52,452 nucleotides of DNA from a virus. Positions 16,714 to 33,957 of this stretch are shown here, in pieces. Numbering within the stretch: the stretch's first letter is position 1; each line of letters begins with the position of its first letter. The translations under genes were made by a program, and so were the position numbers. The notes under the pieces are model-generated. The model was not told the DNA's origin, searched no databases, and was given only the letters and a program-made list of their open reading frames with translations. The stretch covers positions 1 to 52,452 of IMG/VR virus record IMGVR_UViG_3300044302_004114; one strand, given 5' to 3'.

Positions 16714-16872
16714 ATGAAGAATTTTTTAACCCGTTCTACGGTTGCACACGTGTTAATGTCCGCTTCCATATTTCTAATAGGCTTTGGTATTAGTATACTA
16801 AGTTTAGGGTGGGGTTTGGCAAGCGCTGGTCTTTCCTGTGCAATATACGGTTATCTCCTAGGGGCTGAATAA
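16714..16872 (+). CDS. Small membrane protein (52 aa)
   Basis: The protein begins MKNFLTRSTVAH and has two hydrophobic segments, roughly 12-27 (LMSASIFLIGFGISIL) and 32-48 (GLASAGLSCAIYGYLLG). A holin-like or head-proximal role is possible. It starts just after a promoter and its stop overlaps the portal ATG as TAATGG, so it is the first gene of the head operon. I recognise no specific family. Confidence 0.65.
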   Translation: MKNFLTRSTVAHVLMSASIFLIGFGISILSLGWGLASAGLSCAIYGYLLGAE

Positions 16873-18320
16873 TGGCTTGGAACAAATCTTTAAATAATAG
16901 CGAACAAAAGTCAGTTTCAGTTGGTGCGCCCATAGCATACAGCCCAAACTTGCAACCTAAGACTGGTTACCATGATGGGTGGGACATTGTTAAGGCTTAC
17001 AAAGAAGGCGTATCAAAAGTTACTTGGGTTTTTCGATGTATTGATGTTATCGCATCAAATCAAGCCACGCTACCAGTAATCTTACGAAAAGACAATAACC
17101 CATTTGGAGAAGTTATTGGTGATAGTGATCTTTTAAAGATTTTCAACAATACCAGCAATAAAGGTGAGAATGCGTTTGCTTTCCGATATCGGCTTTCCGC
17201 TCAACTCTTAATGAGCAGTCGTGGTGTCTTTATTGAGATAATTCGTGGTCGTGACGGGAATCCAACAGCGCTACATCTTCTTCCCCCACAAAACACTTCC
17301 CCTATTCCAGATGTAAATAAGTTTGTAAAAGGTTACGAGGTAAAGATAAGCGCTACCGAGAAAAAAACATTACGCCCAGAAAACGTAATATGGATTAGAC
17401 GACCACACCCACTTGACCCATATTTGTCGATGACACCAATGGAAGCAGCCGGAGTTGCAATTGAAGTTGAGTCTTTGGCTAAGATTTACAACAGAAACTT
17501 CCTTATTAACGACGGAAGACCAGGTGGTCTTCTTGTGCTAAGAAGCGAAATAGCAGAAGACGACAAAGATGAGATTCGTTCAAGGTTCCGAGGAAACATT
17601 GGTCGTGCAGGCTCAGTTGGGGTTATATCTTCAGATGATGGGGCAGATTTCGTAGACACAGCAGCGTCACCTCGTGATGCAGCATACATTCAGATGCGAA
17701 CATTAACAAAAGAAGAAATTCTTGCGGCCTTTGGTGTACCTGAGTCCATTATTGGAAATTCATCAGGTAGAACATTCTCAAACGCCATGGAAGAAGGAAA
17801 AGTATTCTGGATGGAGACAATGACTCCTCACCTTGCTATGATTGCTCGTGGGTTTGATGCCATTGATCCTCAGCACTATATTGACTTCGACACGTCTAAT
17901 GTTCCTATTTTGATTCTTTCAAAGCAAGAGGCGGAGCGCCACTATGGAACAGAGTTTCAAATGGGTCTTATTAGCGTAAATGAATACCGAGAACTCTCTG
18001 GTCGCAAAAAGGTTGAGTCAGATATTGCTGATTCACTTTTGGCTAACCCAAATCAGTCGCCAATTGCAAACACAGAAAAGCCTATGAATGAAGACGCCGA
18101 CATGCAAGAAGGCGTACCCATGGATCAGCAAGCAACTCAAGCAACACAAGAACAAGTAACAGAGTTTAGCCCAGAAGAAGGCGCTTTTGTCCCAGCGGGC
18201 GAAGTTCAAGGAACAATGGCAATTGAGGCTTCTGCCGCAGAGGTTCCTAGCGAGTTAGAGAGCGATAGATTGGAACCGGAGGGTGAGAAGAGCCTCCCTT
18301 TTTCCAAAACGAAAAAGTAG
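16872..18320 (+). CDS. Portal protein, HK97 family
   Basis: The protein has 482 residues and typical portal order: VTWVFRCIDVIASNQATLPV near residue 50-70, RPENVIWIRRPHPLDPYLSM in the middle, then KEEILAAFGVPESIIGN, then a helical C-terminus with many Gln/Glu. It forms the twelve-subunit ring at the head vertex through which DNA enters. The C-terminal 90 residues are acidic and low in complexity. The last codons contain CCCTTTT (18296-18302), and the -1 frame after it is open and continues into the MuF gene, so part of the product may be a portal-MuF fusion. Confidence 0.93.
   Translation: MAWNKSLNNSEQKSVSVGAPIAYSPNLQPKTGYHDGWDIVKAYKEGVSKVTWVFRCIDVIASNQATLPVILRKDNNPFGEVIGDSDLLKIFNNTSNKGENAFAFRYRLSAQLLMSSRGVFIEIIRGRDGNPTALHLLPPQNTSPIPDVNKFVKGYEVKISATEKKTLRPENVIWIRRPHPLDPYLSMTPMEAAGVAIEVESLAKIYNRNFLINDGRPGGLLVLRSEIAEDDKDEIRSRFRGNIGRAGSVGVISSDDGADFVDTAASPRDAAYIQMRTLTKEEILAAFGVPESIIGNSSGRTFSNAMEEGKVFWMETMTPHLAMIARGFDAIDPQHYIDFDTSNVPILILSKQEAERHYGTEFQMGLISVNEYRELSGRKKVESDIADSLLANPNQSPIANTEKPMNEDADMQEGVPMDQQATQATQEQVTEFSPEEGAFVPAGEVQGTMAIEASAAEVPSELESDRLEPEGEKSLPFSKTKK
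18296..18302 (+). promoter_or_regulatory. Candidate -1 frameshift site CCCTTTT
   Basis: The heptamer has the X XXY YYZ form in the portal frame (C CCT TTT). A slip back by one base reads on as FQNEKVDAFSSWEEKALYRV into the MuF frame. No ATG, GTG or TTG occurs in that frame between the TGA near 18284 and the GTG at 18359, although the residues look coding. Confidence 0.5.
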
Positions 18321-18358: not shown

Positions 18359-19105
18359 GTGGACACCCTAGAGGAAGAGTTTGCTAAAGTTGTTGATTCG
18401 GTTATTGACGATCAAGAAGAGATTGTTTTAAAAGAACTAGAATCTGATGCCACACAAGCACTGCTTGGGTTAGGAAAAGATGCAGATTTTAGCGTGGTTG
18501 CACCACTAGCAGCATTAGGGGTATCCTCTCAACAAATGAACACCTTAATGGATGGCATTTATAAACAAGCCGTTGTAGATAACATCCAAGAAGGATATGG
18601 AACATCTGTCGAGGAAGACACTAAAAATGCGTCAGTTTCACAAAATATAGCCACAGTAAACGAGTTCAATTCCACGACGCAGAAGCAAATTGTTGCTGCG
18701 CTGGCTACGGCATCAGCATTAACTGATGATTCTGGCAATGGAGATATTGATGTGGCACTTAAGATAGCCCTTGCATATTCTTTAATTAAGAGCGTTTTTA
18801 ATAGATTGCGAACAAAAAGAAAGCCTTTAATTGTTGATACTGGTGTTCTTGGCGCCTACAATCTAGGCTTATTTGACTCTTCTGTTGCATTAGAACAGCA
18901 AGATGGGGGGCGACCCATAACCAAACAATGGCTTTCTTTGAGAGATGAGAAGGTTAGAATGGCGCATAGAAACCTAGATGGTGAAAAAGTGCCTGTACAA
19001 AGTGCCTTTATATATAATGGAATACCTATTAGATTTCCTAAAGATCCACTAGCGCCACCGAATTTGACCATAAATTGCCGATGCTTGTTGAAATTTAGCC
19101 GATAA
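18359..19105 (+). CDS. MuF-type head morphogenesis protein (minor capsid)
   Basis: The protein has 248 residues from the GTG at 18359. The C-terminal 60 residues (RDEKVRMAHRNLDGEKVPV, then PKDPLAPPNLTINCRCLLKF) are the signature of the Mu gpF / SPP1 gp7 family, which sits between portal and head. The N-terminal part is acidic and helical. The GTG has no convincing ribosome binding site, and similar-looking coding sequence continues upstream without a start, so translation probably comes from portal by a -1 shift. If not, an indel in the assembly is the alternative. Confidence 0.85.
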   Translation: MDTLEEEFAKVVDSVIDDQEEIVLKELESDATQALLGLGKDADFSVVAPLAALGVSSQQMNTLMDGIYKQAVVDNIQEGYGTSVEEDTKNASVSQNIATVNEFNSTTQKQIVAALATASALTDDSGNGDIDVALKIALAYSLIKSVFNRLRTKRKPLIVDTGVLGAYNLGLFDSSVALEQQDGGRPITKQWLSLRDEKVRMAHRNLDGEKVPVQSAFIYNGIPIRFPKDPLAPPNLTINCRCLLKFSR

Positions 19106-19202
19106 ATATATAAACTATAAAGAGAAACTATATATAAAGTGTGTTAGAACGGCACATTGTAGTATGTAGGATATGGGTATTGGAATTATTTTTAGGAGAA
19201 CT

Positions 19203-20801
19203 ATGTCCACTCTACTTTTCAATTCAAACGCAAATGTGGTCAACCAAGAAGACGAAGATTTTACGTTTAAAGCAATTTCTGGTCAAATTGGCGTTGACAA
19301 AGCAGAAGGTATTGTAGAAGCCTTTGTTTCTGGCATAGGAAACAAAGATTCCGTAGGAGATATTGTTCTTCCAGGCGCATTCAAAGCGTCATTACATCGA
19401 AGAAAACCACGTGTTGTTTGGGGCCACGACTGGAACCAACCAATTGGTAAAGTTCTCGAAATGTATGAAGTTGGACCAGCAGATCCTAGATTGCCTGAAA
19501 AAATGAAAAAAGCAGGCATTGGTGGACTTTTTGCTAAAGTTCAATTTAATTTGAATACTGAACGTGGACGAGAAGCGTTCGCAAACGTTGCTTTTTATGG
19601 AAAAGAGCAAGAGTGGTCAATTGGATACAAAACAATTACTGCGGATTTTAATCCAGACAAGCAAGCAAATATGCTTAAAGAAGTTGAATTATACGAGGTT
19701 TCTCCTGTTTTGCATGGAGCGAACCAACTAACTGGCACCATTTCAGTTAAAGATGACGAGGAAGGCATCATGGAAAAAGGACATTGGGAAGATCACGACA
19801 AGGACGGTCCACAAAATAGCGCTGATGCCGTATCTGCAATGATTGGCAGGGCACTATCAATGGCTCTTCGCAAACCAGTTCGAGTACTACAAATTATGGA
19901 CAATTCAGTAGTGTTTCAGACTGGAGAAAATGCAGTTTGGATGGCTACATTCACAAGAGATAATGGACAAATTCAAATTAGCAAACCTACACGTGTGAAG
20001 CCTACAGTTTCATACACCCCGATAGGAGACTCAAACTCACCTTCCATGATGATAAAAGACAATACAGAACTTCCTGAAAGTTTAAGAGACGCAGATCCCG
20101 AAGAAGGGACATGGGCGACTCCTGACATTGCTTTGGCTTGGTCAAAGACGTTCGGTTGTGATGGGTATCATTCTCATGGCGGTGGCTATTTGCCATGCTC
20201 GACTCATGAAGAGTACCAAAAAGCATTAGAACAGTTTGATGGAAATGCAAACATTAACTCGCACAACAACTACCTTGCTGGGGTTGAGGTAGAAGAAGCA
20301 AAAGATGCTGAATCAGAAAAGGGTGCTTGTGGTTGCGAAACAGAAGAAAAAGGTGGCGTACATGGTCACTCAGGTTACGGGAAACCTAAAAAGAACTGGA
20401 AAGAAGACCCAATGGCTCTTCTCCTAATGGCGTACAATGCCATGCTTCCCGTAAGAGGCGCAAGTGAATTAAGAGAGGCTACGTTAGCCGTAATTAATTC
20501 TCTTGAAGAGTTTTTAACATCAAATCCAGCATCTGCCGAAAACAATGAAAAGGCACTTTCTGGCTTTGTTGTGCATGTAAAATGCAATGAGAATCAAGCG
20601 CTTGATGTTGTTGATGCTATGAATGGGGTATCTGTCCTTTCATTTAAGAGTGAAGAAGGGATTGACCTGCATTTTTCAACAAAAATTGCGCATGACGAAC
20701 TATTAGAGAAGGTAGCGTTTGGTTTGGCTTCTTTAGAGTTTGATCCCCAATTTACAATAACAGACAATACAAGCGTTGACACCGACGAGGGTGTTCAGTA
20801 A
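19203..20801 (+). CDS. Prohead protease (HK97/S78 type) with long C-terminal extension
   Basis: The protein has 532 residues. The protease domain spans about 1-190: VWGHDWNQPIGKV with the catalytic His, EWSIGYKTI with the catalytic Ser, and VELYEVSPVLHGAN. It cleaves the scaffold and capsid N-termini during head maturation. Beyond it lies a Cys/His motif GCDGYHSHGGGYLPCSTHEE (about 318-337), shared with two other head proteins, and a C-terminal domain of unknown role. The ATG at 19203 follows AGGAGAACT. The extension more than doubles the usual family length. Confidence 0.9.
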   Translation: MSTLLFNSNANVVNQEDEDFTFKAISGQIGVDKAEGIVEAFVSGIGNKDSVGDIVLPGAFKASLHRRKPRVVWGHDWNQPIGKVLEMYEVGPADPRLPEKMKKAGIGGLFAKVQFNLNTERGREAFANVAFYGKEQEWSIGYKTITADFNPDKQANMLKEVELYEVSPVLHGANQLTGTISVKDDEEGIMEKGHWEDHDKDGPQNSADAVSAMIGRALSMALRKPVRVLQIMDNSVVFQTGENAVWMATFTRDNGQIQISKPTRVKPTVSYTPIGDSNSPSMMIKDNTELPESLRDADPEEGTWATPDIALAWSKTFGCDGYHSHGGGYLPCSTHEEYQKALEQFDGNANINSHNNYLAGVEVEEAKDAESEKGACGCETEEKGGVHGHSGYGKPKKNWKEDPMALLLMAYNAMLPVRGASELREATLAVINSLEEFLTSNPASAENNEKALSGFVVHVKCNENQALDVVDAMNGVSVLSFKSEEGIDLHFSTKIAHDELLEKVAFGLASLEFDPQFTITDNTSVDTDEGVQ

Positions 20802-20828: not shown

Positions 20829-22673
20829 ATGAGCGACAATCTTAACGAAGACCTTCAAAAGTTTGAAGAACTTGAGAAACTTCTCAATGAAGAGACTGAA
20901 GTCAAATCAGATGAAGAAGAAGGCGAAGTAGTAGAAGAGGCTGAAGAAGTAGTCGAAAGTGAAAGCGGTGACGAAAGTGAAACTGTTTCTGACGAAGATG
21001 ATTCAGAGGTTGAAGTTGAAGAAGAGGCGGAAGAGGCTTCATCAGACGATGATGAGGGCGAAAGCGCTGAGGCAGAATCTGAAGATAGCGAAAGCGAATC
21101 TGACGAGGGAGATGATGCGGAAATAGAAGAGGCTGAAGAATCCCCTGAAGATGCTGACGATGCAGAAGAGTCTGAAGAAGATGAAGAGTCTGAAGAAGAT
21201 GAAGAGTCTGAAGAAGATGAAGAGTCTGAAGAAGATGAAGAATCTGAAGAAGATGAAGAAGATGAAGAGTCTGAAGAAGATGAAGAATCTGAAGAAAAGT
21301 CTGCTGAGGAACAAGAAGTAGACTCAAAGGCAGCAAGCATTATGGCTAGAATGGTTTCTGAAGAAGATGAAACAGACATGCCTGTACTTTGGTTCAAAGA
21401 AGCCGATCTTCTTGAGGCTGAAAATGACGGTGAAATAATTACAGCCTTGGCATACGATGACTTAGATGAAGACGCAAAAGGCGCATATGAACCTATTGAG
21501 GTTTTTGAAGAGGTTTCCGGTAAAGGATGGGGAACCAGATATCGCCGAATTAGCCCATTAGAACGGAATAGGCAACGAAAAGAAACAGAAGAAGTGGTTG
21601 AAGAGGCTACAGAAACTGTTAAAGACATGTTTGACACTGCGGAAGAAGCGGCAGAACGAGCAACCGCACTAGGGTGCGAAGGCTCACATGCACATGAAGG
21701 TGGCAAGTTTATGCCATGCGCTTCCATGGAAGAGTATGAAGCATTAGTTGCTAATGCTGCTGAGAAATCAGAAGAGTTCCTTTGTGGTCAACAGCGCAAA
21801 TCTGTATCGCAACCTTGCGACATTTGTAGAGGAGGCTGTGCGCCAGAAGATGGGCTACCCGGTCTTCAAGACATTGAACTAATTGTCAAAGACGCTCACA
21901 GCGGATCAGAGATTATAGGATCTGGATACTCAAACGTTGACGACATGTTTGTTGTGGACATTAAGCGTGAAGATGGATCAGCAATTGAAGTATTCCTTTC
22001 TGGAGACGGACAAGAACTTGGATGGTTGCGACTAGATGAAGAACTTCTTGATGAAAAATCACTCGAAGGGATTGAAATAGTTTCTAAAGCAGACGCAGAA
22101 GACGTTGCACAAAAAGCAGTTGCAGAACTTGAACTTGAAGGCACAGTAATGGGTGTTATGGTAGATGTTTTCGCTGATGAAGACGTTTACGTTGTTGAAG
22201 TTGAAACTGATCAAAAGAGTTTTGACTTCTTTGTTTCAATTGATGGAAAGATGCTTGGATACGACGAGTACGAAGTTGAACTTGACACTGAAATAAGCGA
22301 AGAAGATGAGATCAAAGCACTTGAAGCGGAACTAGAGATCAAGCGAATGTACTCACGTGAGCAACGAGAGGCAATGGCAGAATCTGGTGAAGCAATGGAA
22401 GATGGATCTTTCCCAATCGCAGATCAAGCAGACTTAGAAAACGCAATTGCTGCCCTACCACGTGCAACTGATAAAGAAGCAGTTACAGCACACATTATAA
22501 AGAGGGCAGAAGAGTTAGGTTTGACAGAAATGCTTCCTGACGGTTTTGCAACAGCAGTTTCAGAGACAGTAGAAGAAGACGATGAAGGAGCAGAGAAAGC
22601 CTCTCCTGATTCAGAGATTATAAGTGCTCTTGAAGAGTTCCAGAGTATGAAGTTGGAGGAAGGGCTTTCCTGA
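20829..22673 (+). CDS. Acidic scaffold-like head protein (614 aa)
   Basis: The first 160 residues are almost all Glu, Ser and Asp, including repeats of ESEEDE, a composition common in phage scaffolds and decoy regions. Near 283-298 is GCEGSHAHEGGKFMPC, the Cys/His module also seen in the protease and at 30969. Near 522-570 is AMEDGSFPIADQADLENAI followed by TAHIIKRAEELG, a module shared with the 30969 protein. Its position between protease and capsid fits a scaffold or assembly protein. The ATG is preceded by GGATTAGGAG. The function is inferred from place and composition. Confidence 0.75.
   Translation: MSDNLNEDLQKFEELEKLLNEETEVKSDEEEGEVVEEAEEVVESESGDESETVSDEDDSEVEVEEEAEEASSDDDEGESAEAESEDSESESDEGDDAEIEEAEESPEDADDAEESEEDEESEEDEESEEDEESEEDEESEEDEEDEESEEDEESEEKSAEEQEVDSKAASIMARMVSEEDETDMPVLWFKEADLLEAENDGEIITALAYDDLDEDAKGAYEPIEVFEEVSGKGWGTRYRRISPLERNRQRKETEEVVEEATETVKDMFDTAEEAAERATALGCEGSHAHEGGKFMPCASMEEYEALVANAAEKSEEFLCGQQRKSVSQPCDICRGGCAPEDGLPGLQDIELIVKDAHSGSEIIGSGYSNVDDMFVVDIKREDGSAIEVFLSGDGQELGWLRLDEELLDEKSLEGIEIVSKADAEDVAQKAVAELELEGTVMGVMVDVFADEDVYVVEVETDQKSFDFFVSIDGKMLGYDEYEVELDTEISEEDEIKALEAELEIKRMYSREQREAMAESGEAMEDGSFPIADQADLENAIAALPRATDKEAVTAHIIKRAEELGLTEMLPDGFATAVSETVEEDDEGAEKASPDSEIISALEEFQSMKLEEGLS
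21168..21297 (+). repeat. Tandem 18-bp repeats encoding ESEEDE
   Basis: GAAGAGTCTGAAGAAGAT and close variants are repeated about six times in frame. They encode a run of Glu-Ser-Glu-Glu-Asp-Glu. The near-identical units suggest recent expansion by slippage. This is a coding repeat, not a CRISPR array. Confidence 0.85.
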
Positions 22674-22690: not shown

Positions 22691-22870
22691 ATGAAAGCCA
22701 ACATAATTGGGGAACGGATTAGTCTTGCTAATGAAGCCCTTTTTGAACTTGGTGCAAGTCGATTTCTTGGTGCCGTATGGGAAAAAGACGAAGTAGAATA
22801 TGTAGATAGCAATGGTGTTTTACACCAGTATATTCCACTAGATGAAGTTGGGGACTCAGATGGAAACTAA
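22691..22870 (+). CDS. Small hypothetical protein (59 aa)
   Basis: The ATG follows TTTGGAGGCTTAA, a good ribosome binding site. The protein begins MKANIIGERISLANEALFEL, continues with SRFLGAVWEKDEVEYVD, and ends in an acidic tail. It lies between the scaffold-like gene and the giant head gene and overlaps the latter's start by about ten bases. I recognise no family. Position and ribosome binding site make it likely real and expressed with the head genes. Confidence 0.6.
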   Translation: MKANIIGERISLANEALFELGASRFLGAVWEKDEVEYVDSNGVLHQYIPLDEVGDSDGN

Positions 22871-25800
22871 CATTGAGATAAAAGGACCTCAGGATGTTCT
22901 TTTAGACCTACCCCAAGAGAGACTCACATCTATTACTCGTGGGCGTGGGCCTAGACGAGGCAACTTAGAGGCACTTCTTCGTTATTGGCGACCAATAATG
23001 CGAAAGCCTGGCGGGTTTCGTAGGTGCTTGGTTATTTTAGCGAACCACCCAGAGTTGTACCCTCTGGAGCGCATCTGTGCGTGGCTTCACCATGAAACCA
23101 CTGGATTGTGGCCCAACGAGGGAAATCATCACAAGCGAGGACGAAAAAAGAAGAAAAAGCGTAAACGCAGGAAACTAACCAGAAGAGTTAGGCGTGCGGC
23201 AAGGCGCAAAAAGTCTATAGATTTCGGAGACGACATTGTAGAAGTTTCTGCAATGCGTTTAGCGGTAAGAGAGGCTAGGGATATAGGTGGCGTACTTGTG
23301 CAACCAATTGCTGGGCGTCAAAACGCTGTAAATCTAAAAACGGCTATGTTTGTTCAGTACTCTGAACCACTACCCGTAACTGGTCAAATTGAAGTTAAAA
23401 GGCGTGGTCTTGTTGGAAGCAGGGGACGTGCTGGTCAAACAGTGCAAGGTATAGGCACCTTCTTGCTACCAGGCGATATGTCTGATTTTAGAAATCCAGT
23501 TCGCTCACAAATATATGAAACACTTACACCAGGTGGTGGACGAGATAGGATTCCTAGTGCTCGTCGTTTACTGCGTGGTGCTGGGCGTGGTGCTAGAAAT
23601 AAATTCAGGTGTCCACCTGGTTTCCAAAAAGGTGGAACGTTTACAAATCGTGAATTCAGTACTTGTGGTGCTCAAATATTGGGCTTGCCTTCATTTGGTC
23701 CAGGTTCTCCTTCAGAGGGAGCGCAGAGGGCACTTGCTAGGTTGGCTAGAAATGCTGAACTAGTTAGGTCAATTGGTGATCTTAGGAAGAACAGAAGCGC
23801 TTACGACATTATTCGTGCTGCTCAAATTCCGGTTGCACCTAAAAAGGCTAGCCCTACCCGTAGACAAACTTCTGTAGACTTGGTTCTTAACAGAATTAAA
23901 AATGAAGAATTCGGAACTCGACTTGTTCGTAGAGACGGTGTTATTCTTGAGCCTGTAGTCTCTTTACAGGCGCTAGGCGGAATGGACGAATTCGACGACA
24001 TGGTTGATGGCAGTTTGATAGACAGGTACACAAAAGGTCAGATTGGTAAAGACATGATTCCTGCGTTTGGCGCTGGATTGAGAGATGTTTATGTTGGCAT
24101 ACCTGAAACTGACTTGGCTGTTAAAATTAGTCGTGTTGGTGGAGAGTTGAAGCCTTCAGAAATGGATGCGGTACAAAGGACTTTCCCAACATCTTTAAGA
24201 AGATCAGCAAACTTGCCTGATCCTTCTGCAGCCATCTATAACTTATCTGAGACAACTAACGGAAGGTTTAAAGTTGAGATAGGAGAGTTAAAGAATAATA
24301 GGTTTAACAAGGTAGACGACGCTCGAAACGAAAGAATAAGAGTTCAGTCTGGCGGACAAGTCCTAATGGTACCACGTTGGGTGTATGACACATTTCTGTC
24401 CAGATCAGCGCCAAGGCGTGCAAAGGGCGACAAAATATTTGAAATTGTCAATGAAGAAAAAGCAGGCAATCCGTTTCTAATATCAACAAAGGCAGTAGCA
24501 CATAAAGCGATTAAAGGCAATGGTAGATACCATGACAAGATTGAATTGCGTATTGCTGCGTTTGCTGATAGTATTGAAGCCGCAAATGTTGAGGTTAAAA
24601 AGGGAGGACGAGTTGCTGGTAGTGCTGTAAGCATTTTAACACCAGGCGATCGTTCACCTTTTACTAGTCCTGTTAGGTCGGGAATATCACGAGCGCTAAC
24701 GCCAGGAGGCGGTAGCGGTGTTGGTGGTAGGGCACGTGCTATTTTTGATCCAGGTATCAACATGCACAGGTGCCCACCGGGTACTCGTAATGCAGGGCAG
24801 TTTACTGATCCAATGGGTCGATCCTGTGGTTATAGTTTGCCTCGCCGGTTGGTGAATGCCATGGTTGATACAGGCGTTCGAATTGAAGATCGCATGGAAG
24901 AGCGAAGGCGACGGCGTGGCGATCGTGAACCGGTACGGCAACGTTTGGGTAAGGCTTATCGTGAGAAACTTGCTAATGCGCAAGATAGACTTTCTGATGT
25001 GATGAAAAGGTTGGCTAATGTTTTAAGGGTTACAGAAGATCGTAATCGTGGTGATGTTGGTCCTACTATTGCAGATCGTAGAAGAAGGGCAGCGCTTACG
25101 CCTGAGCAGAGAGATTTGCTAGATGGTGGAGAGTTGCGTGATGCTTTGCAGAATATGCAGAGAGTGTTAGAAGAACGTGATTTTGATGACGCTGATATTT
25201 CTGATGTAAGAAAAGCATTTAAGCAGGTTGAAGAAGCCGCTCAACTTGAGGCTGGAAGAATTACAGATAATCCTGTTAGGACTCCACAACAACGAAGCAT
25301 GATGGCTTCAATCCAAGAGACTCTTGAAGCAATTATGCGAAAACTTGCACAGGTTATACGTCCAGGTGATGGGCGACGTGATCGTGATGATCGTGATCGA
25401 ACTCCTCGCCGTGTAAGGGCGCAAGAGGCTGGTGAAAGAGGACTCCGCCGAGCGGCTGATGTTGTTCGCCCCGATGGAGATCGTCGTGGCAGGAGAAGAG
25501 GCGAGCCTCGTCGTGTACGAATGCAAGAGGCTGGCGAAAGAGGTCTACGTAGGGCGGCTAATGCAGTTAGACCCGAAGAAGATCGTAGAAGAAGGCAGGG
25601 GCAAGCAAGAAGAGTTGTTACCCCAGATGGACAAGATGAACTAGCAAGACGAAATCGTCGCCTAGGATTAAGACGGCGCAACGCAGCAGTTGAAATGGCT
25701 CCCATGCGCAATCTAAACCAACGAAATAGAAGAAACGTTAATAGAGAAGTTCAGCAACAATTTAATGAGTTGAGCGACTTTTGGGCACGAGAATTGGGTG

Positions 25801-28800
25801 TTGGTGACAGAAATGCCTTCTCAGAAGCACAGATTCGTAGATATATTCGGAGACAGCCACAAAGAAGACGCAGGCTTTTGGAAAGGCGATATAGGGACTG
25901 GAATGAACTTAACGCTCTTCTTAATGCCAATGATGAAAATCCTGAGCATAATGAATTTGAGGATAGGTTAGGAAGACTAGCCCCTCATCGTCGTGAAGCG
26001 TTCTTGAGAAGAGTTGGTGTTAATCAACCTAGGAGAGAAGAACGCAATAATGAGCGCCCTCGTGGTTGGACTGGCTTTGATGGTAGATCATGGTTTTTGG
26101 ACGACAATAACAAACCAGATGCTACGCCACGTCCATCCGCTGAAGAAGTACTACCGGGTGCGGTAACTGAGATGGAGGCGGATGAGAGAGGCGATACCAT
26201 AATTCCATCACCGAACATGCAGGAGATCGCTGAAGTCACTGAATCGGAAGCGATGCCACAAAGCGTGGCGGATCTTGAAGATTTCCTTGCTGCCGCCCCA
26301 TCGGGCAACCGAAGAGGACCGGAGGCACGTGAACTAAGGGCTGCTGGTATCGCTCGTGCGAACGATCGACAAGTAGCACAATTAGTTGATGTATTAGCAC
26401 CTAATGTAATGCGTGATCCAGATGGTACTGGGGATCAACTTCAGGAACTTAGCGACAGTGCATTATACATGTTAGATGCTCGCTTAGATATGATGGTGGC
26501 AAATCCAAATAATACAGTAACGATTCCACCATTCGCTAGAGAAAAGGTCAGAGCAGAAATAAGTCGCCGAAACCTTCCACCACGTAAGCGCCTAACCGCA
26601 GATGACAGAGATAACCTACTAGAACTTGAAGAAATGTGGAGAGGGGTACGTCCAGGAGAAGGCCTTCTCGCTGAAGTTTCCGATGAGAGACTTAACGTAT
26701 TAATTGATACGTTCCAGAATGGTGTAGATATTCGCCAACGGCGTGATGGAGTGAATCCAAACCCTAACGGCTTATCAGATGAAGAATGGGAGCGTGTGAA
26801 TAGAGTTCGTGCTGCACTTATTGTGGAAAGAAACAACAGGAGTGGCGCTCCCGATCGACAAGAGTCAGATAGCCTTGTTGATGGTATGGACATGAACTTA
26901 GAACCTCTAGGAAGCGATGTGATGGGTCTTGATCCTGACGCATGGTTAGAGGATCAAAGAGATTTGAGTCCTGAAGATGTTGAGTTGCGACAATTAGTTC
27001 AAAATTGGATGAGGGATAACAATGTTGCATCACTTTGGGATCGTGAAGATACATGGAAACTGGAGTTTGCAGATTCTCTTAGCGAAGATGAAGCAAATAT
27101 TTTTGCAACAGCCTTGGCAAGGAGACAGATTAGGTTAGATCAAGGTGGAGTCGTTTCAAGAATGGATGACCGGTTGTTAGATACTTTGGCCACCCGACAT
27201 CGCCTGAACGTTGAGGCTCAAGAAGAGATGCGTAAAGCCAGATATAGAAAAGTCCATGGAATAGATAGAATGAACCCCCGCTATTGGAATAACAATAATG
27301 CAAATGATTTCAGTCGAAAACAAGCAGCCGAAAGGTATCGAGATCACTTGATACGGCAAGGTGATTGGTCAGCCGATGGTGATATTATTGATAGTATAAC
27401 TGGCGAAAATGTCAATTGGGTGCGGGACGACATTTTAAGTGATCAACAGGCTGTCAATAACAGTGTACAAGCAGTAAATAATACTGTAGCAAATAGCCCA
27501 TCTTCGCCTGCTTCAGCAGCACGTGCTATTGCTAATTATGACTGGAAAGAAAAACGTAGGCAAAAAATTAAGAAGAGGCAAGAGCAAGCCATCCAACAGG
27601 CAATAGATCGCCATGGAAACAAGCGTCCGTATGCTCAATCAGTAGAAGATATCTCTAATATGCGTAAGCCTGATGGGACTCCCGATACAAGGAAGCAAAA
27701 CGCATACTTTAGGCAGATTTTCTCACACAGGGAAGAGGTTGATGCTGGCACGGTTGAAATAAATGGTCAGACATATCGGAAGACTATAACGCCTATGGTC
27801 ACTAGCACTAAAGTTAGGCGAAATGCGGATGGAACTGTTACCGGTGCTACTGTTAGAGGTAAATTCAGATTTAGAGTGTATGATTCTGATGGGAATGTAG
27901 TTGCTGACGAAACAGCAAGCCCTCAGGGTGGGTATTCAAGAGGACTTTTCAGCAGAAATATAAAGATAACAGAAGGTCGAGTTTCACACAGCACTTTTGG
28001 TGTTGACAGGACTTTAACTGTTGACGGAAAATCTGTAAACTTTAAAGCAGGCGGATTTGGCGATAAGTTTAACAACAATGCAATATTGTTCTATAGAGGA
28101 TTGGGTGTTGATAAAATATCTGTTGGTGCTGCTGGCGATGGAAACGCTATTTGGCCACGTCAAGGATTTAGGGAAGACAACTTTAAGGTAGAGCGCCTAA
28201 ATGCTAGAGGCGGACCAATGGAATCATTGGTTGGTAAATTCAGATCGTATGAGCGCAAAATAGCGAGTGGTGAAACACCTGATGCTTCAGAAATTACTGC
28301 TAGAATTCTTATTGGGGATTCTGCTGCTGCGTCACGAGTGGAAGCAATGCTTGCTTCTGCCCAAGCAACACGAAACATTGATGATATGCCTAGCATACAT
28401 GATTACAGTCTTGCTTTGGATCCATCAACCGCTTCTGGAATAAGCCGAAACACTGCTTTACATAATGTTTGGAGAAGGGGTACCCTTGATAAGGAAATGT
28501 CCCCATCTGACAGGCAAGCAATTGTGGCAGCGCTTCAAGCGGAAGGTATTAGTGACAGCAAGATTGAGTCAGCCTTAAGAGGTGGCTCTAGAGAGTATAA
28601 ACCAGCGTTTGGCGGAGGCGACCTACCAGGCTTTGGCTCTGGCGTATGGACGATCAGTGATGTTGAAGTTCCTTCTGAGTCGGAGGTACAGGACCGTGTT
28701 GCTAGAGGAAATCCCTCTGACTTTTTAGTCCCTAGTGAAGTTGTGCCTAATGTTGCTGGTGGACTTAATCCAGGTTTGGGTGGTGCACAACAAGTAAAAT

Positions 28801-30020
28801 CTGGGTATGTGCCAAGCCTTACACCACCAGGTCATGTTAGGGCGAATGGTCCTGCGGTAATTCCTGATGGAGCCAATGGATTAACTACACAAACAAGGGC
28901 GAACACACACGTTCGAAACGGTGGCTCACTTGCAGAAGTCCCAGATAATATGCTTTTGAAAGCAATTAAAAACAACTCTGATAAAATTCAAGGTGGTCAA
29001 GTTGTTGAAGAAAAACGATTTAAGAAGATCGGACAAGGCGGTGGTGGTGGAGTAAACGGCATCACTATATACGAAGACAGAACAACAGGTACGCTTTATG
29101 GCGTTAAATTCGCTGGAAGCAAGTCGTACTTTAGAAACGAAGCGGAGAATGAGGTTATATCTGGAATGATAGCAGACCAACTTGGGTTCGGGCAAGGAGA
29201 TTTCCGATTTGCTGGACCTGTTGCTACCGCTCAACAAAATAATGGAAATCAAATGGGTGGGGCAACATCTCCAATACTGTTTGAACTTGGAAATGCTATT
29301 CGTGGTCCAGTAGTAACTCATGCAGGAAGAAATTCAAGACCGCAGAATCATCCAACTCTTCCTGATATAAACAGTGATGATGGTATAGCAGATGGGGTTC
29401 GTTTGCTAGCACTAGATATGGTTATTACCAACAGTGACAGGCATGGTAGTAACTTTATGTGGGGAGGAACTCCAAGCGAAACAGCGGTCCTCTTGCCAAT
29501 TGACAATGGCGCAGGCTTACAAAACATATCTTCACGCTCTGCATGGGATCCCAATTTAACCCCTAGACAGAACTTTATGCGAGGCTTAATGGGGTGGAAG
29601 CGTGTAGCAAAAGCGGAAAGTAGAATTCTTCTTGATCCAAACGATCCAAACCCAGAGAGGAATAAGGTTAGAGCGACGTCACGACTGAAGGAGTTGTACG
29701 AAGGACCTCCGGCAGACAAGGCTAGGGCTATAGCAATAATGCAAGGAATTATTGATAACGTTAAAGCCCAAAGGCAAGGCGCTGCACCAATATCAGAAAT
29801 AGTCGAAAACACAAAACAAGGCATGATCCAAAGAGGTGGTGGAACCCCATCAGCAATACAGCGAGCAGATATATGGGCAACAACAGCAGAGACAGCACTG
29901 AGACGCTTGGACTACATTGCCAATAGTACTAGCGCTGAAGATCTACTAAGAGACATACTACAAGCAACACAGGGCGGGGGAATTCCAGACATGAATTGGG
30001 TTCCTGGCGCTACCATTTAA
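22860..30020 (+). CDS. Giant head-region protein with kinase-like C-terminus (about 2386 aa)
   Basis: The N-terminus has PGGFRRCLVILANHPELYPL and a Lys/Arg-rich tract, a block I believe recurs in phage head proteins. A module with TPGG, RCPPG, GxFT and CG occurs twice (about 200-285 and 590-665). A basic middle section has two tandem 34-residue units with QEAGERGLRRAA (about 850-910). Near 1730-1770, GGFGDKFNNNAILFYRGLG followed by WPRQGF resembles an acyltransferase or polymorphic-toxin module. From about 2055 the order is IGQGGGGGVNG loop, YGVKFA lysine, helix with Glu, SDRHGSN with D2193 and LLPIDNGAG with D2215, as in HipA/PI3K-type kinase folds. The ATG at 22860 follows GGGGA. A role in head assembly or ejection is inferred. 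Confidence 0.75.
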   Translation: METNIEIKGPQDVLLDLPQERLTSITRGRGPRRGNLEALLRYWRPIMRKPGGFRRCLVILANHPELYPLERICAWLHHETTGLWPNEGNHHKRGRKKKKKRKRRKLTRRVRRAARRKKSIDFGDDIVEVSAMRLAVREARDIGGVLVQPIAGRQNAVNLKTAMFVQYSEPLPVTGQIEVKRRGLVGSRGRAGQTVQGIGTFLLPGDMSDFRNPVRSQIYETLTPGGGRDRIPSARRLLRGAGRGARNKFRCPPGFQKGGTFTNREFSTCGAQILGLPSFGPGSPSEGAQRALARLARNAELVRSIGDLRKNRSAYDIIRAAQIPVAPKKASPTRRQTSVDLVLNRIKNEEFGTRLVRRDGVILEPVVSLQALGGMDEFDDMVDGSLIDRYTKGQIGKDMIPAFGAGLRDVYVGIPETDLAVKISRVGGELKPSEMDAVQRTFPTSLRRSANLPDPSAAIYNLSETTNGRFKVEIGELKNNRFNKVDDARNERIRVQSGGQVLMVPRWVYDTFLSRSAPRRAKGDKIFEIVNEEKAGNPFLISTKAVAHKAIKGNGRYHDKIELRIAAFADSIEAANVEVKKGGRVAGSAVSILTPGDRSPFTSPVRSGISRALTPGGGSGVGGRARAIFDPGINMHRCPPGTRNAGQFTDPMGRSCGYSLPRRLVNAMVDTGVRIEDRMEERRRRRGDREPVRQRLGKAYREKLANAQDRLSDVMKRLANVLRVTEDRNRGDVGPTIADRRRRAALTPEQRDLLDGGELRDALQNMQRVLEERDFDDADISDVRKAFKQVEEAAQLEAGRITDNPVRTPQQRSMMASIQETLEAIMRKLAQVIRPGDGRRDRDDRDRTPRRVRAQEAGERGLRRAADVVRPDGDRRGRRRGEPRRVRMQEAGERGLRRAANAVRPEEDRRRRQGQARRVVTPDGQDELARRNRRLGLRRRNAAVEMAPMRNLNQRNRRNVNREVQQQFNELSDFWARELGVGDRNAFSEAQIRRYIRRQPQRRRRLLERRYRDWNELNALLNANDENPEHNEFEDRLGRLAPHRREAFLRRVGVNQPRREERNNERPRGWTGFDGRSWFLDDNNKPDATPRPSAEEVLPGAVTEMEADERGDTIIPSPNMQEIAEVTESEAMPQSVADLEDFLAAAPSGNRRGPEARELRAAGIARANDRQVAQLVDVLAPNVMRDPDGTGDQLQELSDSALYMLDARLDMMVANPNNTVTIPPFAREKVRAEISRRNLPPRKRLTADDRDNLLELEEMWRGVRPGEGLLAEVSDERLNVLIDTFQNGVDIRQRRDGVNPNPNGLSDEEWERVNRVRAALIVERNNRSGAPDRQESDSLVDGMDMNLEPLGSDVMGLDPDAWLEDQRDLSPEDVELRQLVQNWMRDNNVASLWDREDTWKLEFADSLSEDEANIFATALARRQIRLDQGGVVSRMDDRLLDTLATRHRLNVEAQEEMRKARYRKVHGIDRMNPRYWNNNNANDFSRKQAAERYRDHLIRQGDWSADGDIIDSITGENVNWVRDDILSDQQAVNNSVQAVNNTVANSPSSPASAARAIANYDWKEKRRQKIKKRQEQAIQQAIDRHGNKRPYAQSVEDISNMRKPDGTPDTRKQNAYFRQIFSHREEVDAGTVEINGQTYRKTITPMVTSTKVRRNADGTVTGATVRGKFRFRVYDSDGNVVADETASPQGGYSRGLFSRNIKITEGRVSHSTFGVDRTLTVDGKSVNFKAGGFGDKFNNNAILFYRGLGVDKISVGAAGDGNAIWPRQGFREDNFKVERLNARGGPMESLVGKFRSYERKIASGETPDASEITARILIGDSAAASRVEAMLASAQATRNIDDMPSIHDYSLALDPSTASGISRNTALHNVWRRGTLDKEMSPSDRQAIVAALQAEGISDSKIESALRGGSREYKPAFGGGDLPGFGSGVWTISDVEVPSESEVQDRVARGNPSDFLVPSEVVPNVAGGLNPGLGGAQQVKSGYVPSLTPPGHVRANGPAVIPDGANGLTTQTRANTHVRNGGSLAEVPDNMLLKAIKNNSDKIQGGQVVEEKRFKKIGQGGGGGVNGITIYEDRTTGTLYGVKFAGSKSYFRNEAENEVISGMIADQLGFGQGDFRFAGPVATAQQNNGNQMGGATSPILFELGNAIRGPVVTHAGRNSRPQNHPTLPDINSDDGIADGVRLLALDMVITNSDRHGSNFMWGGTPSETAVLLPIDNGAGLQNISSRSAWDPNLTPRQNFMRGLMGWKRVAKAESRILLDPNDPNPERNKVRATSRLKELYEGPPADKARAIAIMQGIIDNVKAQRQGAAPISEIVENTKQGMIQRGGGTPSAIQRADIWATTAETALRRLDYIANSTSAEDLLRDILQATQGGGIPDMNWVPGATI

Positions 30021-30346: not shown

Positions 30347-30969
30347 TGGCTTATTTTATGTTAAGCGCAGACAACACAATAATTGCAGACATAACAGACG
30401 ATAGATCTGCCACGTTCCATTCAAAAATAGGCTGGGATGATGATGTTGATAGATTTAAAAGCGCTTTAGAAGTGCTTGAAGGTCGTGATGCTCCATTATA
30501 TTCTGATATACGTATGAAAGCGTACTTCCCAAATATGATTGAAATTGATAAAAGCGCATATGATTCCGCTAGGGAAGAAATTGACGATTTTAATTCAAAG
30601 CAGAAACTTATGTTAGCGGAAATAAATAATACTCCAAATGATGAAATTAGAGAGTATGTATCGTTATTTCCAGCAACCTATCCAGAATTACTTAATTATG
30701 TACAATTAGCAAAATTGCGTATGGCTATGGATATGGTAAAAGATCCTTCTGCTGATTCACCAGGTGAAGTTGTTTTATCAGAGGAAGATGAATTGGCAAA
30801 CATAAGGGCATTATATGGAATGCTTAGGGAAGTCGAAAGATCTAAAGATAACAGCATGATAGTTTCTCTATTGAATCTTGTTGGAGACGCTGTTGAGCCG
30901 GACGACATATTTGGAAGCGAAGAAGTGGATTTAGAACTTGAGCCAGACGACGAAGAGGAATTAGAGTAA
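30346..30969 (+). CDS. Acidic hypothetical protein (207 aa)
   Basis: This protein opens MAYFMLSADNTIIADITDDR and ends with a long acidic tail (VDLELEPDDEEELE). The middle is helical. It is coupled on both sides by TAATGG overlaps, so it forms a three-gene operon with 30062 and 30969. I do not recognise it. Its acidity resembles the scaffold-like protein and the preceding gene, which may reflect electrostatic interaction with the Arg-rich giant protein. Confidence 0.65.
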   Translation: MAYFMLSADNTIIADITDDRSATFHSKIGWDDDVDRFKSALEVLEGRDAPLYSDIRMKAYFPNMIEIDKSAYDSAREEIDDFNSKQKLMLAEINNTPNDEIREYVSLFPATYPELLNYVQLAKLRMAMDMVKDPSADSPGEVVLSEEDELANIRALYGMLREVERSKDNSMIVSLLNLVGDAVEPDDIFGSEEVDLELEPDDEEELE

Positions 30970-32474
30970 TGGCTAAAGATCCCCTCGCTGGAGAAACTGT
31001 CCCAACTAAAGAAATGGCTGAAAAACTATCAGCAATGTTGGGGTGCTCTGGCGCTCACAAAGTGGGGGATGACGCATGGGGTCCATGTGAATCCGATAGG
31101 GATTTACAAAAATTAATTGAAGTTGGGAACCCAGCATTCCGTGAATGGAAGGCACGTCAAAAAAAGAAAAAGACTGTTCTAGACTTTATGGAGTTAAAGG
31201 CTAATAAGAAAAAGGGTTTCTTTAACACTCGTGAAGAAGCGGAGATGGTGGCAACACGTATTGGTTGTTTTGGAGCACATCAAGTTAGGCAAGGTGTATG
31301 GGCACCTTGCGGTACACCTGAAGAGCATAATGCCGCTCATTCCAACGCTGGGGCTGGTAGATCTAGAATAATTAGAGCGCAACGTCCTGCTAGAAGAGTT
31401 GTCACAAATCGAAGAGTTTGGGAGAACTTACGGGGGCGTGGTCCTCGTGGGATAGAAACACTACCTGGTGGTGGGTTGGTTTCTGGTAAAAGCGTAAACG
31501 CATCGGACTCTTTTAAACCAACCAAAGGAATGGTTGAAGAGGCTAAACGTGCCTTAAAGTGGCGTAGGGAGTTTAAGCGTGGCGGAACTGCTGTTGGTAT
31601 TGCTCGTGCGAGAGATATCGCTAATGGTAAAAACTTGCCTTATAAAACTGTAAAAAGAATGAAAGCATTTTTTGATAGACATCAGTCTGATGCTGATGCA
31701 GATGGTTTTCGCCCAGGCGAAGACGGATTTCCGTCGAATGGCCGCATTGCCCATGCTTTGTGGGGAGGAGATCCCGGCTATACATGGGCGAAGGATATTG
31801 TTTCTCGTGTTGAAGGATCTGAAAAGTCTTTCAAAAGTATAGACGAAAAACGGTTCTACACAAGAACACGGAGAACAGAATATGCAAAGCGTGGTTGGGC
31901 TTTACCTGACGGATCATACCCAATTAGAGATGTTGGTGATTTAAGAAATGCGATTCAAGCATATGGTCTTGGAAAAAACAAAGAAAGAACACGCAAGCAT
32001 ATAATCAAGCGTGCTAGACAATTAGGTCGCCTTGATTTAGTTCCAGCAGATTGGAAAAAAAGAGCGTCTTCAAAGTCTTTAAACGATCCTAAAACTCCTG
32101 CCAAACCTTCAGAACGCATATACGGTTCAAGTAGAAATCGTAGAGGCTCTGCTTCAGGCACTAGAGGCGGAATCAAACTTTCTGTCGCTGTTGAAGCATC
32201 TTTAAAAAACAAGGTAAAAGAGCATAACGAGAAGATGGAGAAGCGTGGTAAAGAGGAACGCAAAGTTACACTAGGCATGCTTAAGGCTGTTTGGAGAAGA
32301 GGCGCTGGTGCTTTTTCTCAGACTCACCGACCAAAGATGGGAAGACAGCAATGGGCTATGGGGCGTGTCAATGCATTTCTTAAACTCGTGTCTAGCGGAA
32401 AACCATCAAACCCAAAGTACACAACAGACAACGATCTCCTACCCAAGAAGCACCCACGTAAAACAAAAAAGTAG
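30969..32474 (+). CDS. Head-region protein made of phage-conserved modules (501 aa)
   Basis: Residues 24-40 and 98-114 hold two copies of the Cys/His motif (LGCSGAHKVGDDAWGPC and IGCFGAHQVRQGVWAPC). About 180-280 is a domain with WRREFKRGGTAVGIARARDI and ending LWGGDPGYTWAKD. About 313-355 is ALPDGSYPIRDVGDLRNAI followed by KHIIKRARQLG, as in the 20829 protein. The last 100 residues have LKAVWRRGAGAFSQTHRP and DNDLLPKKHP, a block I know from other phage structural proteins. It lies just before the major capsid gene and is probably a minor head component. Individual roles are unknown. Confidence 0.75.
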   Translation: MAKDPLAGETVPTKEMAEKLSAMLGCSGAHKVGDDAWGPCESDRDLQKLIEVGNPAFREWKARQKKKKTVLDFMELKANKKKGFFNTREEAEMVATRIGCFGAHQVRQGVWAPCGTPEEHNAAHSNAGAGRSRIIRAQRPARRVVTNRRVWENLRGRGPRGIETLPGGGLVSGKSVNASDSFKPTKGMVEEAKRALKWRREFKRGGTAVGIARARDIANGKNLPYKTVKRMKAFFDRHQSDADADGFRPGEDGFPSNGRIAHALWGGDPGYTWAKDIVSRVEGSEKSFKSIDEKRFYTRTRRTEYAKRGWALPDGSYPIRDVGDLRNAIQAYGLGKNKERTRKHIIKRARQLGRLDLVPADWKKRASSKSLNDPKTPAKPSERIYGSSRNRRGSASGTRGGIKLSVAVEASLKNKVKEHNEKMEKRGKEERKVTLGMLKAVWRRGAGAFSQTHRPKMGRQQWAMGRVNAFLKLVSSGKPSNPKYTTDNDLLPKKHPRKTKK

Positions 32475-32667: not shown

Positions 32668-33957
32668 ATGAGTTTTGATGAGAGTCGGCTCAACGAACTC
32701 AAAACTGCTTTAACCGGTAAAATGGCAGAGCAGCAAGAGATCGCTGATTCGATGCAGTTCGAGGGTGAAACCCTCATTGCAGATGATGAAAAGAAATCTG
32801 CATTTCAAGGCAATATGGCCCAGATCAAAGAGATCAAAGGTCTTATTGAAGACATGGAAACCCTTCGTGACGTATCAGCATGGTCGTCAGAGTCTGACTA
32901 CAAGTCAGTCGCTGCTGAAGTTGCTGCTGGCGTTGAGGCTGAGGTTGCAAATCACTACGGTTCCGTAGGTGAAGCATTCCTTGACTCCCCAGAATTTAAG
33001 TCACTACAGGGCGGTAAAGCCGGTGTTAACATGGTTGCACCTTATCAGGCAAAAACACTTGAGCAAAAAGATATTTATTCTGGTTTGCCAACTGGAACAC
33101 CTGGTTCTTTCGGTGCTGTTGAGCGTGACGGAATTGTCCCAATCGCACAACGTAGAAGCCGTGTACGGGATCTTTTCCCATCACGTAGCACTAATTCAGC
33201 AGTTATTGAGTACTTCCGTCAAAGCGGTTTCACGAACAACGCTTCTGTTGTTCCTGAATATGCGTCCAGTGCATTTGGTGCCAAGCCTCACTCAACGTTT
33301 ACTTTCGTTGGCGAGCAGGCTCCAGTACGGACCATCGCTCACTGGGAAGCCGCTCACCGTAACGTTCTTGCTGACGAACCGCAACTGCGGTCAATCGTTG
33401 ACAACGAACTTCTTTACGGTCTGCGTTTAACAGAGGACAACCAAATCCTCTCAGGTGCTGGTACAGGTGAAGACCTCACTGGTATTCTAAACACGACAGG
33501 CATTCAAACGTATTCATGGTCTGCTGGTGCAACAACTCCGGTTGCTGACACCAAAGCCGATGCAATTCGTCGTGCCGCAACGCTCGCATACCTAGCGTAC
33601 TACGAGCCAACTGGTATCATTGTTAACCCAAATGACTGGGAAGACATTGAACTTACCAAAAACTCACAAGGTACCTACCTACTTGCTATGTCAGTAGCCG
33701 GTGGCGCAGAGTCACGTGTCTGGAGAATTCCAGTCATCGATACTCCTGCTATCGCTTCTGGTACTGCTCTTATCGGTGCCTTCGGTACAGGTGCTCAGTT
33801 GTATGACCGTGAGGCTGCTACAATCCGAATTTCGGAACAGCATTCAGACTTCTTCGTAAGAAACGCAATCGTGATTCTTGCTGAAGAGCGTCTCGCCCTC
33901 GCTGTTAAGCGACCAGAGTCCTTCGTGAAAGTTACCTTCGACGCCGCTCCATCCTAA
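32668..33957 (+). CDS. Major capsid protein, HK97 fold
   Basis: The protein has 429 residues. The first 100 form a charged helical delta/scaffold domain (LTGKMAEQQEIADSMQFEGE). The capsid core starts near 110 (GSVGEAFLDSPEFKSLQGG) and includes RSRVRDLFPSRSTNSAVIEY, then an E-loop/A-domain section with EAAHRNVLADEPQLRSIVDN and GAGTGEDLTGILNTTG, as in HK97 gp5 relatives. The N-terminal domain is probably removed by the protease. A strong terminator follows. Coding bias and length fit a highly expressed capsid gene. Confidence 0.95.
   Translation: MSFDESRLNELKTALTGKMAEQQEIADSMQFEGETLIADDEKKSAFQGNMAQIKEIKGLIEDMETLRDVSAWSSESDYKSVAAEVAAGVEAEVANHYGSVGEAFLDSPEFKSLQGGKAGVNMVAPYQAKTLEQKDIYSGLPTGTPGSFGAVERDGIVPIAQRRSRVRDLFPSRSTNSAVIEYFRQSGFTNNASVVPEYASSAFGAKPHSTFTFVGEQAPVRTIAHWEAAHRNVLADEPQLRSIVDNELLYGLRLTEDNQILSGAGTGEDLTGILNTTGIQTYSWSAGATTPVADTKADAIRRAATLAYLAYYEPTGIIVNPNDWEDIELTKNSQGTYLLAMSVAGGAESRVWRIPVIDTPAIASGTALIGAFGTGAQLYDREAATIRISEQHSDFFVRNAIVILAEERLALAVKRPESFVKVTFDAAPS

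Follow-up and report, generated by a model that had tools for sequence, protein, structure and literature searches.

A giant protein encoded in the head-gene cluster of an uncultured virus almost certainly carries a two-lobed kinase fold at its C-terminus, and this domain is probably an active kinase. The computed evidence comprises the fold itself, intact and conserved catalytic residues, purifying selection, a fixed place in the head cluster and the exchange of domains within that place. What we infer from these features is that the enzyme is active, that it is packaged and ejected, and what it acts on; we lean towards reading the giant as a virion cargo effector of the polyvalent kind, whose HipA/PI4K/CotH-type kinase would be ejected with the DNA and would phosphorylate a host component.

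The Giant Gene and the Head Cluster

The window, that is, the whole stretch of 52,452 nucleotides analysed, is a 52-kb IMG/VR virus record, which is probably a fragment. The contig carrying a relative of the giant with 74% identity in its best segment (L004) is 128 kb, and an identical giant is found on one other contig. Rfam and tRNA scans of the window were empty.

The open frame of the giant covers positions 22842-30020 of the forward strand (2392 codons) and offers two in-frame ATGs, one at 22842 (2392 aa) and one at 22860 (2386 aa). The latter is the likelier start, judging from the bases upstream, since GGGG is found 7-10 bases before it and the ATG at 22842 is without such a site. Residue numbers such as K2083 count from 22860; counted from 22842 they are six higher. 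The gene order is portal, MuF-like protein, HK97-type prohead protease, p614, giant, two short ORFs (94 and 207 aa), p501 and major capsid protein (MCP):

16872-18320, + strand: portal protein (PF04860, E 9.6e-53)
18359-19105, + strand: MuF-like head morphogenesis protein (PF04233, E 1.5e-7)
19173-20801, + strand: HK97-type prohead protease with a DUF3721 motif in its C-terminal part (PF04586, E 1e-13)
20829-22673, + strand: p614, a 614-aa head-region protein with a DUF3721 motif; it borders the cargo slot on the left and is conserved
22860-30020, + strand: giant head-region ORF (open-frame list, motif check, start-site check)
30969-32474, + strand: p501, a head-region protein of 501 aa carrying two DUF3721 motifs; it borders the cargo slot on the right and is conserved
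32668-33957, + strand: MCP (PF05065, E 2e-46)

The first-pass annotation had placed the giant in the head cluster. This placement is right, since the flanking genes match the Pfam families of portal, MuF, prohead protease and MCP. The nearest cultured capsids to the MCP belong to Gordonia and Brevibacterium phages, which only hints at a host among Actinobacteria. No HipB-type antitoxin match was found among the larger ORFs adjoining the giant that were scanned.

A short Cys/His motif (DUF3721, GCxGxH...PC) is common to the prohead protease, p614 and p501, and is possibly a common assembly or targeting element of head proteins. The CPPG...CG motifs of the giant were considered as the same element and dropped, as the motifs differ.

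Motifs and Sequence Matches of the Kinase Domain

The motifs on which the kinase reading was originally founded, namely a Gly-rich loop, a Lys, a Glu, SDRHGSN and IDNGAG, are all present in this order in the 2386-aa product, and the numbering of D2193 and D2215 agrees. The domain and its predicted residues are the following:

28887-30017, + strand: kinase-fold domain with an N-terminal helical lead-in and a C-terminal helical lobe (A5 profile, model)
29037-29057, + strand: Gly-rich loop GGGGGVN (in IGQGGGGGVNG), between strands beta1 and beta2
29106-29108, + strand: predicted ATP-binding Lys K2083 (in YGVKFA), strand beta3
29151-29153, + strand: predicted helix-C Glu E2098
29436-29453, + strand: predicted catalytic loop DRHGSN, with catalytic Asp D2193 and Asn N2198
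29502-29504, + strand: predicted metal-binding Asp D2215 of IDNG

Searches with the single sequence were near-empty, and a profile built from uncultured relatives was needed. In detail, tblastn against 50,697 phage records gave no relative, whether the query was the domain or the entire giant, and neither did phmmer against PDB. Scans of genome contigs with narrow patterns gave no cellular relative, a result which, given such patterns, does not imply absence. The domain is above the cut-off of no single Pfam family. It matches PI3_PI4_kinase (PF00454) with 16.2-16.3 bits (E 0.009-0.01, against a gathering cut-off of 27.1 bits), just over the SDRHGSN segment. HipA_C and HipA_2 are absent from its matches and appear, weakly, in other members of the family only.

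A search with the capsid protein gave 80 viral loci, and an iterated HMM search of their ORFs yielded 51 ORFs with the domain; the E-values of this search are not independent, as the profile is trained on its own matches. Alignment A5 consists of 35 phage sequences that are 16-36% identical to the window, with visibly degenerate copies left out. Its profile matches positions 28887-29972 with E 7e-76, the window being itself a row of the profile. Among the 35 members, 16 match PI3_PI4_kinase (best 5e-5) and eight HipA_2 (best 2e-5).

Evidence for the Kinase Fold

When the A5 profile was compared with all PDB sequences, CtkA of Helicobacter pylori was the best match (E 3e-5), followed by Fam20C (2e-3), PI3K-alpha (3e-3) and then VPS34 and actin-fragmin kinase. 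The AlphaFold model of the domain (pLDDT 79.5, pTM 0.84) has the topology strand, Gly loop, strand, strand with the Lys and helix with the Glu, then, after a further helix, the DRHGSN loop, two strands, IDNG and a helical lobe. The closest structural match of the model is PI4K-IIalpha (Z 10.4, rmsd 5.7, 242 aligned residues), followed by CtkA (Z 10.3), CotH (10.1), HipA (9.2) and HipT (9.0), and the structural matches listed are kinases. Foldseek alone also places PI4K-II at the top (E 8e-4), with low TM-scores. Among predicted viral proteins (BFVD), an uncultured phage protein annotated as PI3/4-kinase domain protein ranks first (E 7e-14); protein L7TJZ0 of the haloarchaeal virus HSTV-2 is also found there.

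The same structure procedure applied as a control to domain X, which precedes the kinase in the giant, gave no such list of kinases; thus, the matches do not reflect a general bias. The predicted structure bears out the kinase-like C-terminal domain that had been proposed from the motifs, and "HipA/PI3K-like" describes the right neighbourhood. The class of target (protein, lipid, RNA or small molecule) cannot be told from the fold, because the superpositions on known kinases are loose (rmsd 5-6 A) and the Foldseek TM-scores low.

Conservation, Degenerate Copies and Selection

In the 51 unselected relatives, the Lys and the Glu columns are each kept in 49, and the catalytic Asp, the Asn and the metal Asp each in 43, which excludes a chance origin of the motifs. 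Only six columns of A5 are invariant (K74, E89, G100, D184, N189 and D206), five of which are the ATP-Lys, the helix-Glu, the catalytic Asp, the Asn and the metal-Asp. The exclusion of degenerate copies from A5 favours such invariance, a bias of which the counts in the 51 relatives are free. Accordingly, the Lys and both Asp, on whose presence in relatives the first-pass annotation had made its reading depend, are kept save in a minority of recognisable degenerate copies.

Not every phage needs catalysis, as there are copies with lost catalytic residues (e.g., L014 and L019-L023). In L014, L019, L020, L021 and L023 (kinase ORF located at ~4.2-7.3 kb), SRSPLD or ARSPLD is found in place of DRHxxN and the metal Asp is lost. 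The degenerate kinase of these five has an ORF of its own, which immediately follows the ORF of domain X; in this subgroup, the giant appears to be split and the kinase inactive.

The kinase domain is under purifying selection in the relatives, with dN/dS of 0.06-0.38 over ten pairs. Its divergence is considerable, as kinase domains fall to ~20% identity against 64-99% for the MCPs. The giant of L004 keeps the Gly loop, Lys, Glu, DRHxxN and IDxG, with ~40% identity to the window in the kinase part and only 19-36% in residues 1100-1500.

A Proposed Cargo Slot between Protease and Capsid

Among 45 uncultured phages with a related MCP and 7 kb or more of sequence upstream, 38 have the kinase domain ahead of the capsid gene. 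As capsid similarity was the basis on which the loci were selected, the fraction describes one lineage and is no census. Two further records (L041 and L043) have a match to the domain elsewhere. The order across the loci is fixed, i.e., protease, p614, one or more kinase giants, p501 and MCP. Several phages have two or three diverged kinase copies (e.g., L072, L074 and L083/L095), and a search of four cultured phages whose capsids are related found no copy of the domain. Some members of the kinase family match the PADLOC candidate-defence models PDC-M03A (best 5e-11).

The slot exchanges the kinase with other effector-type domains. In four phages without the kinase (L065, L087, L086 and L076), ORFs of 1691-3223 aa occupy the same slot and contain Zeta_toxin plus NUDIX, DnaJ, HTH/sigma-r4 or pentapeptide domains. 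Among cultured phages, an RNA ligase and a VIP2-like ADP-ribosyltransferase are encoded between portal and MCP in UBSmoodge (Gordonia), and an RNA ligase in the same region in Cantare (Brevibacterium). The slot giants before the capsid gene are found at L065:2-9670, L087:2-9646, L076:3-5075 and L086:1041-9350.

Scaffold, Spacer and Domain X

The giant consists of a scaffold region, domain X and the kinase, and the identification is firm for the kinase only. The parts ahead of the kinase are:

22860-26140, + strand: basic N-terminal scaffold region, ~residues 1-1095 (L004 comparison, charge count, phrog_6439 match)
26140-27540, + strand: acidic, fast-evolving spacer (19-42% identity to L004)
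27549-28580, + strand: domain X, 344 aa (recurrence in relatives; model pLDDT 91)

The N-terminal region is ~75-95% identical to the matching region of L004, and the first 1100 residues (counted from 22842) have a net charge of +84. This charge is not consistent across relatives (-115 in L078, -28 in L029), for which reason scaffold basicity was dropped as a general mark of packaging. A phrog_6439 module (RKPGGFRRCLVILANHPELYPLERICAWLHHETTGLWP) is located at positions 23001-23138 (residues 48-93) and is followed by a very basic KKKKKRKRRK stretch; module and stretch are possible contacts to nucleic acid or in packaging.

Domain X is found in about 26 relatives, either immediately ahead of the kinase on the same protein or on an ORF next to it, and it shows invariant G, W and G inside a DG..VW.R.GF motif. 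A profile search gave no PDB relative below E 0.4. A GNAT identity is tentative, as the GNAT rows reach only Z 3.9-5.7 and are found among unrelated folds.

Comparison with Known Systems

Few phage kinases have been characterised, T7 gp0.7 and the 933W kinase being those named by Benler et al. (PMC8008677). In the same account, five gut phages named 'Gratiaviridae' have a HipA-family kinase between portal and MCP, read as superinfection immunity (Benler et al. 2021, PMC8008677). The window resembles them in having a HipA-like kinase gene between portal and MCP in a tailed phage. The 'Gratiaviridae' are described from human gut metagenomes with Bacteroidetes as hosts, and their kinase domain is found beside an ATPase and a glycosyltransferase; compared by this description only, the passages on that kinase propose no giant scaffold, array or virion cargo (PMC8008677).

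Polyvalent proteins are large, multidomain proteins (with kinase, GNAT, zeta-toxin and ART domains) encoded near virion genes, for which packaging in the virion and injection have been proposed (Iyer et al. 2017, PMC5512222). The giant is similar in its size, its gene among virion genes (protease to MCP) and its exchangeable effector domains. By contrast, the polyvalent kinase clade comprises reduced Ser/Thr/Tyr kinases in which the C-terminal lobe was lost (PMC5512222), whereas the window kinase is modelled with a helical C-lobe after the metal Asp and is nearest to PI4K-II, HipA, CotH and CtkA. The main text of Iyer et al. has no mention of HipA or PI3K (PMC5512222).

CtkA, CotH, HipA, HipT, type II PI4-kinase and Fam20C share the fold and the order of catalytic residues with the window domain. 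They differ in having 10-15% identity to it over structural alignments, and no phage head protein is among them; the scanned ORFs next to the giant gave no antitoxin partner.

Gp16 of HSTV-2 is encoded in a head/neck module, three genes after the capsid gene, and has a domain with DRHYGN...IDSG. It matches PI3_PI4_kinase with E 1.5e-5, just below the cut-off, and its counterparts in HRTV-2/11 and HCTV-6/15 are annotated as 'phosphatidylinositol kinase'. On the basis of the equal length (490 aa) and the motif, it is presumably the BFVD match L7TJZ0. Gp16 differs from the giant in its length, its archaeal virus, a profile similarity that is only local and the lack of a giant scaffold. In gp16, encoded at L090:10647-12119, the N-terminal part is common to many haloviruses, whose proteins leave the remainder unmatched.

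The ADP-ribosyltransferase Alt of T4 is packaged in the head and injected, and its delivery with the DNA is established (PMC5512222). It resembles the proposal made here as an enzyme packaged in the head that acts immediately on the host. The enzymes are unrelated, and delivery, established for Alt, is inferred for the giant.

The novelty claimed in the first-pass annotation stands in part. A HipA-like kinase near head genes was already described between portal and MCP in five gut phages (PMC8008677), as were virion-linked multidomain proteins with other kinases in 2017 (PMC5512222). As far as searches show, neither the giant scaffold nor the arrays of several copies nor the spread through the lineage has been described. 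Literature searches by phrase gave no paper in which a tailed-phage head protein is named as PI3/4-kinase-like.

Proposed Role and Alternatives

In the proposed mechanism, the long basic N-terminal scaffold region would anchor the giant in the head during assembly, and the variable tail would end in an atypical kinase of the HipA/type II PI4-kinase/CotH/CtkA/Fam20 group. K2083, E2098, N2198 and D2215 would bind ATP-Mg, and D2193 would serve as the catalytic base in phosphate transfer. The giant would be packaged in the procapsid and enter the cell along with the DNA, where the kinase would phosphorylate a host component early (most likely a protein), for takeover or against defence. The polyvalent reading follows from the slot, as mixtures of effector domains beside virion genes are what Iyer et al. 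named polyvalent proteins (PMC5512222). Packaging and ejection as such are moderately probable.

A place among head genes points to late expression rather than to packaging. A kinase expressed late and left unpackaged could alter the dying cell, e.g., by superinfection exclusion as proposed by Benler et al. for the 'Gratiaviridae' (PMC8008677), whose kinase gene, in the account given there, has the same place between portal and MCP; the PDC-M03A matches of some members also agree with this. We consider it improbable, as a fusion to a ~2000-residue scaffold would be costly for a soluble late enzyme and the zeta-toxin/NUDIX/DnaJ giants of the slot are the mix of polyvalent proteins thought to be injected (PMC5512222).

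A role in morphogenesis, with the kinase phosphorylating capsid or other head proteins, would fit a gene between protease and MCP. CotH kinases phosphorylate spore coat proteins, and with Z 10.1 CotH belongs to the closest structural matches. The kinase is unlikely to be essential for assembly, since the catalytic site is degenerate in five phages with the same gene order (L014, L019, L020, L021 and L023) and other phages with related MCPs have zeta-toxin giants instead; the divergence of the kinase far beyond that of the MCPs also argues against it, and we rate this explanation slightly lower than late unpackaged expression. There are also kinase folds, such as SelO and SidJ, that perform AMP or other transfer. 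The domain could likewise catalyse another reaction, or serve for binding only as a pseudokinase-like scaffold, given that the fold alone does not fix the reaction and that the family includes degenerate copies. With the five canonical residues intact in the window and invariant in the family, and with low dN/dS, this is the most doubtful of the alternatives.

Returning to the cargo reading, a wider proposal can be put forward tentatively, and with less confidence than the reading of the giant itself: the proteins may form a large unrecognised family of virion-delivered kinases, in which one uncultured lineage would keep a dedicated cargo slot between protease and capsid. The slot would be occupied by up to three HipA/PI4K-like kinases (at least one), diverged from each other and at times accompanied by degenerate copies, as a shuffled set of effectors injected at the start of infection. 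The prediction for polyvalent proteins apart, the kinases of tailed phages found in the literature consulted here have not been proposed as virion cargo. Dozens of uncultured phages have members of this diverged family, with the catalytic site intact, at one fixed place among their head genes; whether phages inject kinases can thereby be tested directly, and the slot is a place in these genomes to seek new enzymes of host takeover and counter-defence.
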